DNA of 64,000 nt from an uncultured Blastocatellia bacterium (GTDB taxonomy: Bacteria > Acidobacteriota > Blastocatellia > Chloracidobacteriales > Chloracidobacteriaceae): the NCBI GenBank assembly GCA_937934745.1, contig CALGZC010000033.1, positions 1-64,000 on the forward strand, given 5' to 3'. Below are positions 8,663 to 13,689 of this stretch, piece after piece (position 1 is the first letter of the stretch; each line of letters begins with the position of its first letter). The notes below the pieces were generated by a model. It ran no database searches, was not told where the DNA came from, and was given only the letters and a program-made list of their open reading frames with translations. Made by a program: the position numbers and the translations under genes.

Positions 8663-9396
8663 ACCTGCGTCGGCGTGCTTTGCGCTTCTTTGCAGTGAGC
8701 GTGTTCCTGGCGGCTGCGGTCGGCCTGGCTTACCACTACGGGCAGACCGTTCACTATTGCGCTGACATTTCCGCGCCGCTGACGCCGCTGACCCCGGAAG
8801 CGGCGCTGAATGAACTCCGCCGCGGCAATCTGCGCTTTGTCAACTCCCGCCGGATTTACTCGGCCGATACCTGCCACGATGCCGAACGCCGCCGTGAAAT
8901 CTCGAAGGAGCAGCACCCGTTTGCCGCAATCCTGTGCTGCGCCGACAGCCGGATTTGCCCGGAGTTTATTTTCGACCAGCGGGCCGGGAGTATCTTCGAG
9001 ATTCGCAATGCCGGCAATGTCGTGGATGAGGACGTGCTGGCATCGTTGGAATACGCCGTCGAACACCTTCATGTCCCGCTCATTGTCGTCCTGGGTCACA
9101 AAGGCTGTGGGGCGATTGAAGCCGTCTGCGAAGCCGGCGAAGCGCCTTTGCCCCATCACCTGCGGGCATTGCAGATGCACATGAGCGGTATTCGCGAGCA
9201 GGCGGTGTTATGCCGGCATCGGGTCGACCGCACCACAGTTGACCGGCTGGCGGAAGAAAACGCCAGGCAACAGGCGCTTGCCCTTGTGCAGGAAAGCCCG
9301 GTTTTGAGAGCCGCCATTGAACACAAGGCGGTTCGCCTGGCCTATGGTCTGTATGATCTAGAGACCGGCGAGGCGACCTGCTGGAATGCGCCCTAA
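8659..9396 (+). CDS. Beta-class carbonic anhydrase, membrane-anchored or exported
   Basis: The enzyme interconverts CO2 and bicarbonate. The zinc site is intact: Cys94, Asp96 and Arg98 in CADSR, His147 and Cys150 in GHKGC. The 245-residue protein begins with a basic stretch and one hydrophobic segment (about residues 8-26), so it is probably anchored in, or exported across, the inner membrane. Its start overlaps the SulP stop by four bases, so both are probably made together and act as one bicarbonate uptake or CO2-handling unit. Its stop (TAA 9394-9396) overlaps the stop of trpG on the other strand. Confidence 0.92.
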   Translation: MNLRRRALRFFAVSVFLAAAVGLAYHYGQTVHYCADISAPLTPLTPEAALNELRRGNLRFVNSRRIYSADTCHDAERRREISKEQHPFAAILCCADSRICPEFIFDQRAGSIFEIRNAGNVVDEDVLASLEYAVEHLHVPLIVVLGHKGCGAIEAVCEAGEAPLPHHLRALQMHMSGIREQAVLCRHRVDRTTVDRLAEENARQQALALVQESPVLRAAIEHKAVRLAYGLYDLETGEATCWNAP

Positions 9397-10058
9397 AAGG
9401 AGGCGCTCGTCGGCGGGGCCGGGGCGGCGACGGGCGAGAGGGATCGCGCCGGGCGCAGGTCGGTTGCGCGACCGGTAAGCCGGAGAAAGTTGCCCAGCAG
9501 TCGGCTACCATCCGGCGTACCGATGGATTCCGGGTGAAACTGAACGCCGTACACCGGCAGCTCGCGGTGCGCCACCGCCATGATGAGACCATCGGCAGCC
9601 GCGCGCGCCGTGACGGTCAGGCAAGCCGGCAGCGTCGCTTCGTCCGCGATGAGCGAGTGGTAGCGCATGGCGGAAAAGCGTTCCGGCAACCCGGCGAAGA
9701 GCGGAACAGGCGCCGTCACGACAATTTCAGACATCTTTCCGTGGACAATCTGCGGCGCGCGGACGATGCGCCCGCCGTAGGCGGCGACAATCCCCTGGTG
9801 ACCCAAGCAAACGCCTAGGATTGGCGCGGCAAGCGTCGCGGCAGCCTGCAACACCGACCGGCAGATGCCGAAGTCGCGCGGATTGTCGGGGTGTCCCGGC
9901 CCGGGCGAGATGACAATTCCGCTCGGCCGCCACCTGTGCAGGGTTGCCACGTCCAGGGCGTCGTTGCGGACGACGACGACTTCCTCGGTCGTCTGCATCT
10001 GAAGCATTTGATACAGGTTGAAGGTAAAGGAATCGTAGTTGTCAATGATGACCAGCAT
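9393..10058 (-). CDS. trpG: Anthranilate synthase glutamine amidotransferase subunit
   Basis: TrpG hydrolyses glutamine and passes ammonia to TrpE to form anthranilate from chorismate. The class I amidotransferase triad is visible: Cys84 in GVCLGHQG, His175 and Glu177 in VQFHPESIG. The N-terminus MLVIIDNYDSFTFNL is typical. At 221 residues it is a full-length stand-alone subunit with a short extra tail. It starts 23 bases after the trpE stop and is the last gene of the aroF-trpE-trpG operon. It may also serve 4-amino-4-deoxychorismate synthesis, as TrpG does in several bacteria. Its stop overlaps that of the convergent carbonic anhydrase gene. Confidence 0.93.
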   Translation of the reverse strand: MLVIIDNYDSFTFNLYQMLQMQTTEEVVVVRNDALDVATLHRWRPSGIVISPGPGHPDNPRDFGICRSVLQAAATLAAPILGVCLGHQGIVAAYGGRIVRAPQIVHGKMSEIVVTAPVPLFAGLPERFSAMRYHSLIADEATLPACLTVTARAAADGLIMAVAHRELPVYGVQFHPESIGTPDGSRLLGNFLRLTGRATDLRPARSLSPVAAPAPPTSASF

Positions 10059-10081
10059 GGCGTTGGCGGCGCGACAGGCGC

Positions 10082-11557
10082 CTATCGAAAAGAGTCAGGG
10101 GGATCGTTGTCGGGTGGCATCGCGCCGGCTTCGGCCAGACGGAGCGCGGTGATGACGCTGCGCGCTTTGTTGCGCGTCTCGTCGGCTTCGGCCTGCGGCT
10201 GCGAGTCAAACACGACGCCAGCTCCGGCATTGACATGCGCAACGGCGTCCTGCACGAGGACGGAGCGAATGGCAATCGCGCTGTCCGCCTGCCCGGCGAA
10301 GTCAATGTAGCCCACCATCCCGGCGTAGAGTCCGCGCCGTTCTGGCTCGATCTGGGCGAGCAGTTCCATGGCGCGGATTTTCGGCGCGCCCGTCACCGTC
10401 CCGCGCGGGAAGCAACTGCGTATCGCGTCAAAGGCGGTCAGCTCCGGCCGCAATTTCCCGGTGACATCGGTGGCCAAGTGCATGACATGCGTGTAGCGGA
10501 CAATCCGCGCGATTTCTCCAACTGTCACCGTGCCGACCTGCGCAATCCGTCCGACATCGTTGCGCGCCAAGTCAACCAGCATGCGGTGTTCGGCGAGTTC
10601 CTTTTCATCGGCGCGCAGGCGCTCGGCCAGGCGCGCGTCTTCTTCCGGGGTGTCGCCGCGCGGGCGCGTCCCGGCGAGCGCGCGCAGCGTGACCGTCCCA
10701 TCCCGCGCGGTGACAAAAGTTTCCGGCGATGATCCGACGTAGGTAAAGCCCGGCGTTCCCGTGTAGCGCCCGAACTTCAGGCAGTAAGCGTAGGGGGAGG
10801 GATTGAGCGCCACCAGCGCGCGGTAGATGGCGAACGGCGCGGCCGTTGTCCGCCGCGCAAAGCGGCGCGCCGGCACAATCTGAAAAACCTCGCCGGCGGC
10901 GATATAGGCGCGGCACCGTTCCACCAGGCGCGCAAAAGCCGCGTCGTCAAGCGTAGTCTCGACGCCCGCGAAGACATCGCCCCCGCGCAGGGCGTCCGTG
11001 GCGTCGCGCAGCGGCGGCAGCGGCGCGCGCCGCCGCACCCGGTCATACACTTGTGCCACGATCGCGTCCCCGCCGTAGGAGACGATGTGCAGCTTGCGGT
11101 ACAGGTGATCGAAGATCACAAAGGTATCGTAGAGGCCAAAGCAGCCGTCCGGCGCGGCGTAGGGCGCGGCGGCCTGCATGGGGATGTTAGCCAGCAGGGC
11201 CGTTGCGCCGTACCCCAGATAGCCGACGAAGCCGCCGTAAAACGGCAGCCCTGGCGGCAACGCCTGCCGCTGGTCGGCGACCAGGGCGCTTTCGCGCGCG
11301 AGCAGCTCGCCCAAGAGCTGCAGCGGATCATCCGTCTGGGCGTGCCGTTCGGTTTGGCGGTGGAGGTCGTAAACCGACACGCGCCGTCCGTGAAAGGCCG
11401 CCACCAAGCGCGGTTCAATCCCGATGATGGAATATCGCGCCAGCCGGGCGTCGCCTTCGGCGCTTTCCAAAAGGAAGGCGACATCCGAGGCTGCGGCCAG
11501 CTCGTTGTAGAGCGCCGCCGGCGTCACGACGTCCGAGAGAACCGTCAGAAAGCTCAT
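10082..11557 (-). CDS. trpE: Anthranilate synthase component I
   Basis: TrpE converts chorismate to anthranilate. The 491-residue protein has the N-terminal LLESAEGD followed by RYSIIG, the motif that binds tryptophan for feedback inhibition, and a complete chorismate-binding C-terminal half (LAGTRPRG, LVDLARNDVGR, FPRGTVTGAPKIRAMELL, GLYAGMVGYIDF). The kept LLES motif separates it from PabB and indicates allosteric control by Trp. The start ATG overlaps the stop of aroF (ATGA), so the two are translationally coupled. The leader upstream of aroF should control this gene too. Confidence 0.94.
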   Translation of the reverse strand: MSFLTVLSDVVTPAALYNELAAASDVAFLLESAEGDARLARYSIIGIEPRLVAAFHGRRVSVYDLHRQTERHAQTDDPLQLLGELLARESALVADQRQALPPGLPFYGGFVGYLGYGATALLANIPMQAAAPYAAPDGCFGLYDTFVIFDHLYRKLHIVSYGGDAIVAQVYDRVRRRAPLPPLRDATDALRGGDVFAGVETTLDDAAFARLVERCRAYIAAGEVFQIVPARRFARRTTAAPFAIYRALVALNPSPYAYCLKFGRYTGTPGFTYVGSSPETFVTARDGTVTLRALAGTRPRGDTPEEDARLAERLRADEKELAEHRMLVDLARNDVGRIAQVGTVTVGEIARIVRYTHVMHLATDVTGKLRPELTAFDAIRSCFPRGTVTGAPKIRAMELLAQIEPERRGLYAGMVGYIDFAGQADSAIAIRSVLVQDAVAHVNAGAGVVFDSQPQAEADETRNKARSVITALRLAEAGAMPPDNDPPDSFR

Positions 11558-12384
11558 GCTGCGCGCTCCCTGGGTTGGTCGAGCCGGCGTCCCACCGCCT
11601 GCGCCACGGCCGAGGTCTCCGCGACGAGCTGCGCCAAGTCGTCAAGCGACAGCGCCTGCGCCGCGTCGGAGACCGATTGCTCCGGCACGGGATGACATTC
11701 GACAATGAGGCCGTCGGCCCCGACGGCGACCGCCGCCCGCGCGGCCGGCAGCACCAGGTCGCGGCGTCCGGTGGCATGGCTCGGATCGACGATGACGGGC
11801 AGGTGCGTCAGGCGCTTGAGCAAGGCGACCGCCCCCAGGTCGAGGACGTTGCGCGTCGCCGGATCGAAGCTCCGAATGCCGCGCTCGCAGAGGATGACCT
11901 GCGGGTTGCCGCCGGCGAGGATGTATTCCGCCGCGCCTAGGAACTCCTCGATGGTGGCCGCCAGCCCGCGCTTGAGCAAGACCGGCTTGGCAACCTGTCC
12001 GAGCGCCTTCAACAGCTCGAAATTCTGCATGTTGCGCGAGCCGACCTGGAAGCAGTCAAACACATCGTAGGCGCGCTCGATGTGGGCTACCGACATGACT
12101 TCGCTGACGACGCCAAGGCCGTAGTCCCGCTTCACGGCGTTGAGCAGCGCCAGCCCTTCATCCTGGAGGCCCTGGAAACTGTAGGGCGACGTGCGCGGCT
12201 TATAGATGCCGGCGCGCAGCAGGCGAACGCCTAGCTTGGCAAGGGCTTCGGCGGTGGCGCGCAGTTGAGTTTCGGATTCGGCGGCGCAGGGACCGGCAAT
12301 GAGGGCGAGCGGCTGCGCCCCGACAGGGACGCCAGCAATGGTAACGGTGGTGTGGTGTGACGGAGAACTTCGGCGAGCAAGCAT
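11554..12384 (-). CDS. aroF: 3-deoxy-7-phosphoheptulonate (DAHP) synthase, type I-beta
   Basis: The enzyme joins phosphoenolpyruvate and erythrose 4-phosphate, the first step of the shikimate pathway. Signatures are [41 protein letters not shown] and [14 protein letters not shown] (metal and substrate ligands). At 276 residues it is the short catalytic form without an ACT or chorismate-mutase regulatory domain, so feedback inhibition of the enzyme itself is not evident. Control by the upstream attenuator would fit. ATG 12384 has GAGGAAA about nine bases upstream. It is the first structural gene of the operon, followed by coupled trpE and trpG. Erythrose 4-phosphate can come from the pentose-phosphate genes at 19-29 kb. 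Confidence 0.93.
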
Positions 12385-12419
12385 CGTGGCGTTTCCTCAC
12401 GGTTGAAAAAAATAGCCCA

Positions 12420-12460
12420 AAAACAAAACCGCCGACCTTCCAGCTTGGGAAGGTCGGCGG
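12420..12460 (-). terminator. Rho-independent terminator in the aroF-trpEG leader (attenuator)
   Basis: Read on the minus strand, CCGCCGACCTT (12460-12450) pairs perfectly over 11 bases with AAGGTCGGCGG (12439-12429) around a 10-base loop, followed directly by TTTTGTTTTT. It lies 30 bases after the leader-peptide stop and 36 bases before ATG 12384. A strong intrinsic terminator between promoter and first gene is the hallmark of attenuation. Confidence 0.9.
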
Positions 12461-12489
12461 CTCGTCAGAAAGCCTGGCGGAGCGTTAAC

Positions 12490-12588
12490 TCAGTCGTCAA
12501 TCGCGCGCGCCGGCCGGCCGGTCGAAGCCCTCCCCGGGAGGCTCCACCAGTACCAATAGCCGCTAAACGTAAAGTTGCGCGCGTGCAT
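12490..12588 (-). CDS. Aromatic amino acid leader peptide of the aroF-trpE-trpG operon
   Basis: This 32-residue open frame begins ATG CAC GCG CGC, contains Phe at positions 6 and 8 and then SGYWYWWS (codons TAT TGG TAC TGG TGG at 12558-12544), and stops at TGA 12492-12490. Seven of its first 15 residues are Phe, Tyr or Trp, with three Trp codons within four. The terminator follows 30 bases later. Such an arrangement means that ribosome stalling, when charged tRNA-Trp or tRNA-Tyr is scarce, would favour read-through into aroF. The mix of codons suits an operon that contains both a general aromatic enzyme and Trp-specific ones. No clear ribosome binding site is visible. A short GC hairpin (CCTCC, CGG, GGAGG) overlaps codons just after the Trp run. 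I did not find this described elsewhere. Confidence 0.85.
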   Translation of the reverse strand: MHARNFTFSGYWYWWSLPGRASTGRPARAIDD

Positions 12589-12622
12589 AGAAAACAAGAA
12601 TAGGGTTAACGCTACTGGCGGG

Positions 12623-12651
12623 ACAATAGCGTTGCAGATGTTCGAATGCAA
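12623..12651 (-). promoter_or_regulatory. Candidate sigma-70 promoter for the leader and aroF-trpEG
   Basis: On the minus strand TTGCAT (12651-12646) and TATTGT (12628-12623) are separated by 17 bases. Transcription would begin near 12616, about 28 bases before the leader ATG. The position, immediately after the end of the heptosyltransferase gene, fits. A second possible -10, TATTCT near 12602-12597, would give a nearly leaderless leader mRNA. Confidence 0.55.
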
Positions 12652-12654
12652 GTC

Positions 12655-13689
12655 CTATGCGAGGGCAAGGGCGGTGAGCGTGGCCTGATAGACCGTTTCG
12701 GGCGTCAGTTCGGTCAGGCAGCGGTGGTCAATCGGGCAGTCCTTGAGCTGACAGGGCGCGCAGGGAACCAGTTTGCGCACGATGCGCGCCGTCGGCGAGA
12801 AAGGTGAAATCTGGTTGGGATCGGTCGGGCCGAAAATCGTCACTAGGGGGCGCTCTAGCGCCGCCGCGACGTAGGCTGGCCCGGTGTCGTTGCTCACCAC
12901 GGCGGCGCATCGGGACAGCAGCGCCACGCTTTCCCGGAGCGAAAGCTCGCCGGCAAGGACGGTCGCCCGTTCCGGGCGGCGCATCGCGCGGCGAACGGCG
13001 TCGCACAACGGGCGCTCCTGTGGTGCGCCAATGAGCCACAGGTGCAGGTCGTCCTGGTCGGCCAGTCGGTCGAGCAGGGCTGCAAAGGATGTCGCCGGCC
13101 ATTGCTTGGCGCGACTGTTGGCGGCGCCGGGGACAATGGCGACGGAGCGGCCGCTGCGCTCCAGGTGCGGCAGCTTGGCGGCGAGGGCGGCGTAGGCAGT
13201 TGGGGCGACTGGGAGCCGGTAGTCCGGCGCTTCGTAGTTGACCTGTGTTTGCCCGGTCAGCCGCGTTTCCCACTGCGCGAGCAGGTCGAGGTAGTAGTAA
13301 AGCTGGTGCTTGCGCCGCGTCGCCGGCGTGACGGGCAGGGCGTCGGTGAGGAGGAAGCGCCGCCCTTCGGTGGCGAAGCCAATCCGGCGCGGAATGCGTG
13401 CGGCAAACGCCAGGGCCGCCGCTTCAAAGGCGTTTTGAAAGAGCAGGGCCGCGTCAAAGCCGCCGGCGCGGAGCTTGGCGACGCCGGAAAGGAATGACTC
13501 CCGGCAGCGGTCGTACAGCAGGAGGTCATCGGCGAGCGGCGTATCGGTGAAAAGGTCGGCAACCCAGGGCCGAACCATCAGCGTCAGGCGCGCGCCGGGG
13601 AAGATGCGGCGCAGCTCGCGCAGCGCGGGCAAGGTCATCATCGTGTCGCCGATCCAGTTGACGCCGCGCACAAGAAGCCGGTGAAACAT
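12655..13689 (-). CDS. waaF: ADP-heptose:LPS heptosyltransferase (WaaF type)
   Basis: This glycosyltransferase family 9 enzyme adds heptose to the inner core of lipopolysaccharide at the cytoplasmic face of the inner membrane. The 344-residue protein starts LLVRGVNWIGDTMMTLPALREL, the typical N-terminal motif. It also has SNDTGPAYVAAALERPLVTIFGPTDP, with the conserved Asp-Thr-Gly acceptor motif, and a Cys-rich CAPCQLKDCPIDHRCL segment found in heptosyltransferase II. It confirms an LPS-bearing outer membrane, together with the LptE-like gene at 31 kb. The start ATG 13689 lacks an obvious ribosome binding site. Other LPS genes are not nearby. Confidence 0.92.
   Translation of the reverse strand: MFHRLLVRGVNWIGDTMMTLPALRELRRIFPGARLTLMVRPWVADLFTDTPLADDLLLYDRCRESFLSGVAKLRAGGFDAALLFQNAFEAAALAFAARIPRRIGFATEGRRFLLTDALPVTPATRRKHQLYYYLDLLAQWETRLTGQTQVNYEAPDYRLPVAPTAYAALAAKLPHLERSGRSVAIVPGAANSRAKQWPATSFAALLDRLADQDDLHLWLIGAPQERPLCDAVRRAMRRPERATVLAGELSLRESVALLSRCAAVVSNDTGPAYVAAALERPLVTIFGPTDPNQISPFSPTARIVRKLVPCAPCQLKDCPIDHRCLTELTPETVYQATLTALALA

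Follow-up and report, generated by a model that had tools for sequence, protein, structure and literature searches.

What does the short open reading frame before the aroF-trpE-trpG operon of an uncultured Blastocatellia bacterium respond to, if it responds to anything at all? In the window, by which we mean the whole stretch of 64,000 nucleotides analysed here, the initial annotation had described a leader peptide rich in Phe, Tyr and Trp with a terminator behind it, and had suggested that a phototrophic acidobacterium senses several aromatic tRNAs through this one leader. A gene for the FMO protein was found in the genome, which makes the organism a phototroph, as had been remarked, of what we take to be the Chloracidobacterium kind. 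We argue below that the region is very probably an attenuator and probably a sensor of Trp and Tyr, while a three-way aromatic sensor is possible but unproved.

Results

The operon and its promoter-like sequence

The gene names aroF-trpE-trpG hold by profile matches (Table 1), that of TrpE lying below its cut-off (top profile trpE_most, 459 bits, under the cut-off of 517.7). The promoter-like sequence TTGCAT-17-TATTGT noted earlier is present; it is a weak sigma-70 match, below the threshold of a consensus scan, and its hexamers and spacing are kept in the genus, where the -10 hexamer ends some 29-34 nt upstream of the leader ATG (the hexamers of G006 were assigned by eye). In other lineages the -35-like hexamer is TTGACA, and promoter-like hexamers precede the leader in every lineage.

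Table 1. Coordinates of the leader, its RNA elements and the operon genes, as positions in the window.
Feature	Position	Strand	Remarks
-35-like hexamer TTGCAT	12646..12651	-	TTGC-like in 7/7 genus genomes, 17-18 nt from -10
-10-like hexamer TATTGT	12623..12628	-	34 nt upstream of leader ATG; TAnnnT genus-wide
Leader peptide ORF MHARNFTFSGYWYWWSLPGRASTGRPARAIDD	12490..12588	-	32 codons plus stop, ATG to TGA
Phe-Thr-Phe, codons 6-8	12565..12573	-	Possible but doubtful Phe sensor; conserved in the genus
Tyr-Trp-Tyr-Trp-Trp control codons 11-15	12544..12558	-	Highest predicted antiterminator occupancy on stall
Pause hairpin 1:2, GGAGCCTC..GGGGAGGGCTTC	12518..12550	-	RNAalifold consensus, six genus sequences
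Antiterminator 5' arm (GGGGAGG, 12534-12528, plus TCG and GGCC blocks)	12517..12534	-	Mimics terminator 3' arm
Terminator 5' arm and first loop base GCCGCCGACCTTCCC	12447..12461	-	Common to antiterminator and terminator; genus-invariant
Intrinsic terminator	12419..12460	-	13-bp stem, then TTTTGTTTTT
aroF, class I-beta DAHP synthase	11554..12384	-	NF006421 and TIGR01361 above cut-offs
trpE, anthranilate synthase component I	10082..11557	-	Overlaps aroF stop; TIGR00564 is the best match
trpG, glutamine amidotransferase subunit (TrpG/PabA)	9393..10058	-	TIGR00566; last gene, next gene convergent

The leader is conserved in the genus as a translated frame

In translation, the leader of this genome (G000) carries F6, F8 and Y11-W12-Y13-W14-W15, an exact match to the initial description. 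A leader of 32 codons precedes aroF in all seven genomes of the genus, whose AroF proteins are 85-97% identical to that of G000, and the core FTFSGYW is invariant as protein throughout. The Tyr/Trp cluster reads YWYWW in five of the seven, YWYWR in G002 (one Trp codon gone) and YWHWR in G004 (one Tyr and one Trp codon gone). Relative to G000, nothing but synonymous changes (at F8, G10 and Y13) and the Y13H replacement of G004 is seen in codons 6-14; codons outside this stretch vary freely across the genus, and compensating indels in G001, G005 and G006 leave the second half partly frame-shifted, with the stop still at codon 33. Because the stop stays in place despite the indels and codons 6-14 are constrained, we read the pattern as selection for a translated leader, and the preservation of FTFSGYW in every genome, together with almost exclusively synonymous change in codons 6-14, argues against a chance ORF. 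No Shine-Dalgarno sequence is visible before the leader ORF in the genus sequences. A strict pattern for the exact genus peptide found it nowhere beyond the genus among 396 Acidobacteriota genomes, and TGGTAYTGGTGG, which occurs too commonly, was dropped as a stand-alone search motif.

Aromatic leaders occupy the same site in other lineages

At the same site, two other genera of the family and one genus of another family have leaders with the clusters YWWYYW, WQYKAWW and WYWW. Those of G008 (MNTQFFTAQYWWYYWFSPPVACPIVST) and G009 (MSMTFSVAQKWQYKAWWIRTNGLPRLCTQLKR), from the same family, stand before aroF-trpE-trpG with terminators of their own, and those of G112 (MKTSNYNSRTINAAWYWWSVNVGGCVVWRAM) and G124 (MTTTNYNSRTINAAWYWWSVNVGGCVVWREM), from the other family and both of the form ..AAWYWWSVN.., belong to loci in which aroF lies directly before trpE. 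The Tyr/Trp codons are largely kept within the genus and recur in three other genera, in support of the initial annotation. In G008 and G009, too, a Phe codon precedes the first Trp by six codons; the leaders of G112 and G124 have no Phe codons.

Where leaders were seen in the trpE-first genomes of family f6, they are mostly Trp-only (HWGWWHSS, SWHWAWSW, SWWAW, NWRTW). Tyr lies inside the Trp cluster in all four aroF-first lineages versus 2 of 11 distinct trpE-first leaders, the latter classified by hand and eye (one-sided Fisher p ~0.01). We regard this association of Tyr codons with aroF-first operons as suggestive only, because some trpE operons (G088, G091, G104, G075) carry aroF at their far end. 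A broader rule, by which Tyr codons would accompany aroF wherever it lies in the operon, was weakened by G088, in which a Trp-only leader precedes trpEDCFBA-aroF. Trp-only leaders stand before trpE in another Blastocatellia family (L025, L027, L028, L024, L040, L070, L074); where the operon behind such a leader was read fully, as in G088, it is trpEDCFBA-aroF. Few convincing leaders were found before other class I-beta genes of the class.

Terminator and antiterminator are predicted to exclude each other

The stem before aroF is the strongest terminator-like site of the interval 9300-13000. Its arms CCGCCGACCTTCC/GGAAGGTCGGCGG form 13 contiguous Watson-Crick pairs (-27.0 kcal/mol), slightly better than the 11 pairs first counted, are followed by TTTTGTTTTT, and begin about 28 bases after the leader stop codon. 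In the RNAalifold consensus of six genus sequences, pause hairpin 1:2 takes in the last of the control codons and sequesters the antiterminator arm. When a ribosome is held at codon 14 in foldings of G000, this arm is predicted to pair with 12461-12447, GGGGAGG joining CCTTCCC (12453-12447) and the helix being extended via the TCG and GGCC blocks. The competing structures anticipated in the initial annotation are therefore predicted by the folding, the antiterminator using the bases right after the Tyr/Trp codons. In G008, G009 and G124, whose sequences differ and whose terminators are their own, a matching antiterminator block likewise follows the control codons directly. At 89% similarity, the genus sequences vary too little for covariation among them to be more than weak: a double compensatory change is seen in 1 of 51 consensus pairs. 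Compensation between lineages is the stronger evidence. Rfam gave no match in the window, including T-box, Trp_leader and other cis-regulatory families.

A stalled ribosome is predicted to free the antiterminator

To place the ribosome, each leader codon in turn was set in the A site, and the 15 nt that follow the first P-site base were treated as covered. Folding then took in the RNA as far as the last base of the terminator loop, which left the 3' arm out of reach; the model is a plain equilibrium one in which the footprint is fixed, and not a kinetic simulation. In G000, the predicted occupancy of the terminator 5' arm by upstream pairing was 0.85-0.90 for Y11 to W15 in the A site; it fell to 0.64 at S16 and was 0.36 for a ribosome at the stop codon. 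Mean occupancy was 0.68-0.99 in the Tyr/Trp cluster versus 0.20-0.49 at the stop in all 11 loci, for which the fair count is four lineages, the seven genus loci not being independent. When the segment from the control codons to the terminator was shuffled with dinucleotides preserved, p(difference) was 0.007-0.046 in 10 of the 11 loci and p(stall) was <= 0.02 in nine; the weakest cases are G004 (0.86 versus 0.49; p(difference) 0.15) and G009 (p(stall) 0.09). Stalls at the Phe codons gave occupancies of 0.53-0.72 in G000, G001 and G005, with 0.63-0.64 for G000 itself, and of 0.84-0.99 in G002, G003, G004 and G006, such that a stall at Phe may help in some genomes. The initial annotation had named three findings that would speak against it, namely loss of the Tyr/Trp codons in close relatives, lack of an alternative structure involving the leader codons, and a transcription start downstream of the leader; as far as sequence permits a judgement, none of them was encountered.

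A second DAHP synthase is present

All ten genomes of the family have a class I-alpha DAHP synthase gene elsewhere, before which no aromatic leader was found in the seven genomes inspected; class II DAHP synthase is absent. We therefore rejected the idea that aroF, as sole DAHP synthase, forces Tyr and Phe sensing, and a need for Tyr sensing does not follow.

Discussion

There is, in our view, a strong case that aroF-trpE-trpG is controlled by ribosome-mediated transcription attenuation. Control by TRAP, whose hallmarks are repeated (G/U)AG triplets in the leader together with an mtrB gene, seemed a poor candidate given this classic architecture. An upstream ORF with clustered end-product codons and a terminator between leader and first gene were both found, and an exclusive antiterminator, favoured by a stall at the control codons and not at the stop, is predicted in silico, more weakly in G004 and G009. 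Anatomy, conservation, codon placement and, in four lineages, mutually exclusive pairings can be read from the DNA; in the cell, we infer, the leader would be translated and the ribosome would stall or pass, with termination or read-through as the outcome. Transcription would start upstream of the leader. With charged Trp-tRNA (and probably also Tyr-tRNA) at hand, the ribosome would pass Tyr-Trp-Tyr-Trp-Trp and reach the stop codon, pause hairpin 1:2 would re-form behind it, and the terminator would halt RNA polymerase before aroF. If charged tRNA ran short, the ribosome would stall at codons 11-15 and cover the 5' side of the pause hairpin, and the freed GGGGAGG..TCG..GGCC segment would pair with the terminator 5' arm before the 3' arm was made. 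Such antitermination would allow read-through into DAHP synthase and anthranilate synthase jointly.

Which tRNAs would be sensed is less uniform a matter. Sensing of Trp is what we hold safest, and very likely, on account of the leader anatomy and the presence of Trp codons in every leader. Sensing of Tyr is likely, given the position of its codons between Trp codons and their recurrence in four aroF-first lineages. Sensing of Phe is doubtful, since the Phe codons lie 4-6 codons upstream of the first Trp, have a weaker predicted stall effect in G000, G001 and G005 and are absent from G112 and G124. The composite Phe/Tyr/Trp sensor first proposed thus keeps its Trp part by anatomy and, probably, its Tyr part by position and recurrence, and its Phe part is the one called into question.

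A simpler device would be an attenuator that senses Trp-tRNA alone, as classic trp leaders and the Trp-only leaders of related Blastocatellia do, with the Tyr and Phe codons as passengers, for example as spacers that set the stall positions. We consider this a minority prospect, though one to be taken seriously: the operon ends in trpEG, leaders before trpE in family f6 are Trp-only as a rule, and the class I-alpha enzyme could serve Phe and Tyr. Moreover, PMC11802643 describes the Tyr codon of the Corynebacterium glutamicum AroR leader as without regulatory effect, a caution that a codon's presence in a leader is not the same as its being sensed. Against passengers speak the skew of Tyr towards the clusters of aroF-first lineages (p ~0.01) and the mixture of Phe, Tyr and Trp in DAHP-synthase leaders of other phyla.

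The invariance of F-T-F-S-G, which contains no Trp or Tyr codon and is as constant as the control codons, and the Phe that precedes the first Trp by six codons in three genera could also be accounted for if FTFSGYW acted within the exit tunnel, as TnaC and other arrest peptides do, and sensed a free aromatic metabolite, the RNA pairings serving as read-out. However, the segment is not conserved in other lineages with the same architecture, the control codons are clustered as tRNA sensing predicts, and part of the conservation could be due to base pairing inside the leader, so that nascent-peptide arrest appears improbable. Least probable is that the stem simply terminates the heptosyltransferase gene upstream (12655-13689) and regulates nothing. 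That gene does share the strand of the leader, from which its end is about 70 nt away, but an aromatic ORF arisen by chance is contradicted by the conserved 32-codon frame, the conserved core and the matching antiterminator blocks in unrelated sequence contexts.

Attenuation by tRNA sensing, the reading we prefer, has well-known relatives. The enterobacterial ilvGMEDA and thr leaders combine codons of several amino acids in one leader, branched-chain or Thr/Ile codons there and aromatic ones here. With E. coli trpL (Rfam Trp_leader RF00513) the locus shares a short leader with clustered Trp codons, a pause hairpin, an antiterminator, an intrinsic terminator and trpE downstream; it differs in the interleaved Tyr codons, the upstream Phe codons, the DAHP synthase gene in first place, the lack of an Rfam match and its acidobacterial host. 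The AroR leader of C. glutamicum aroF, with Phe-Tyr-Phe, attenuates a DAHP synthase gene (PMC4046766, PMC11802643) and likewise has more than one kind of aromatic codon, whereas neither Trp codons nor linkage to trpEG are reported for it; Phe limitation alone affected its transcription (Neshat et al. 2014, as reported in PMC11802643). The uORFC-13-1 motif of Acholeplasma, a predicted uORF and terminator before aroF (PMC8632094), is likewise a prediction and differs in having Phe codon(s) only, another structure and another phylum. Database-predicted attenuators also precede class I-beta aroA > tyrA operons (PMC1173090).

Of 79 class I-beta loci in named genomes, 15 are preceded by an ORF with Phe, Tyr or Trp at six or more of eight consecutive positions; shuffled sequences yielded 0.2 such cases and the opposite strand 1. 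These mixed leaders occur in cyanobacteria, Melainabacteria, Desulfobacterota, Calditrichota and Clostridia, and footprint folding is clear for about 5 of 11 distant ones and not for the remainder. Cyanobacterial and Melainabacterial class I-beta genes (L140, L143, L165) often have two tandem mixed or Tyr-rich leaders, each with a terminator, as in MFAASSYFYFWYWKVRPE and MTLFSNWYYGFYFWPDRSSG upstream of aroF. In Desulfobacterota-like MAGs (L156, L160, L183, L217), the aroF leaders share a C-terminal VCPSxRR-like motif after the Phe/Tyr/Trp run, which hints at a common leader family.

The initial claim of novelty can consequently not stand as worded, given the known mixed Phe/Tyr leader of C. 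glutamicum and the wide spread of mixed leaders at aroF. What appears moderately new is the case in Acidobacteriota, and a Trp-dominated, Tyr-interleaved leader that would control DAHP and anthranilate synthases jointly; we found no paper describing this leader in the open-access literature searched, a scope outside which the large survey of Lopatovskaya et al. 2010 lies. Predicted attenuators of Acidobacteria were almost without assigned function in an earlier survey (PMC2965389), and a clear job is now proposed for one of them. The comparison further suggests a rule by which the codon mix of a leader tracks the set of end products fed by its operon, with trp attenuators and DAHP-synthase attenuators grading into each other. 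Tentatively, and with the odds somewhat against so broad a reading, the leader may respond as an OR-gate when Trp, Tyr or, less markedly, Phe runs short, and in this way tie DAHP synthase, at the entry to the shikimate pathway, to anthranilate synthase, which opens the Trp branch. It would then exemplify widespread, largely undescribed mixed-aromatic leaders before class I-beta DAHP synthase genes, with codon compositions that reflect the products served by each operon.

Two observations concern the history of the operon genes. The nearest relatives of AroF outside its own family are, among the named genomes, cyanobacterial (64-61% identity), and aroF may have been transferred. The genus also has a second, strongly diverged TrpE-like protein (L224; G000:C24:47117-48496), which scores about 174 bits with trpE models; since the proteins that probably correspond to it in G008 and G009 still match TrpE well, it may be an old TrpE displaced by the aroF-linked one.
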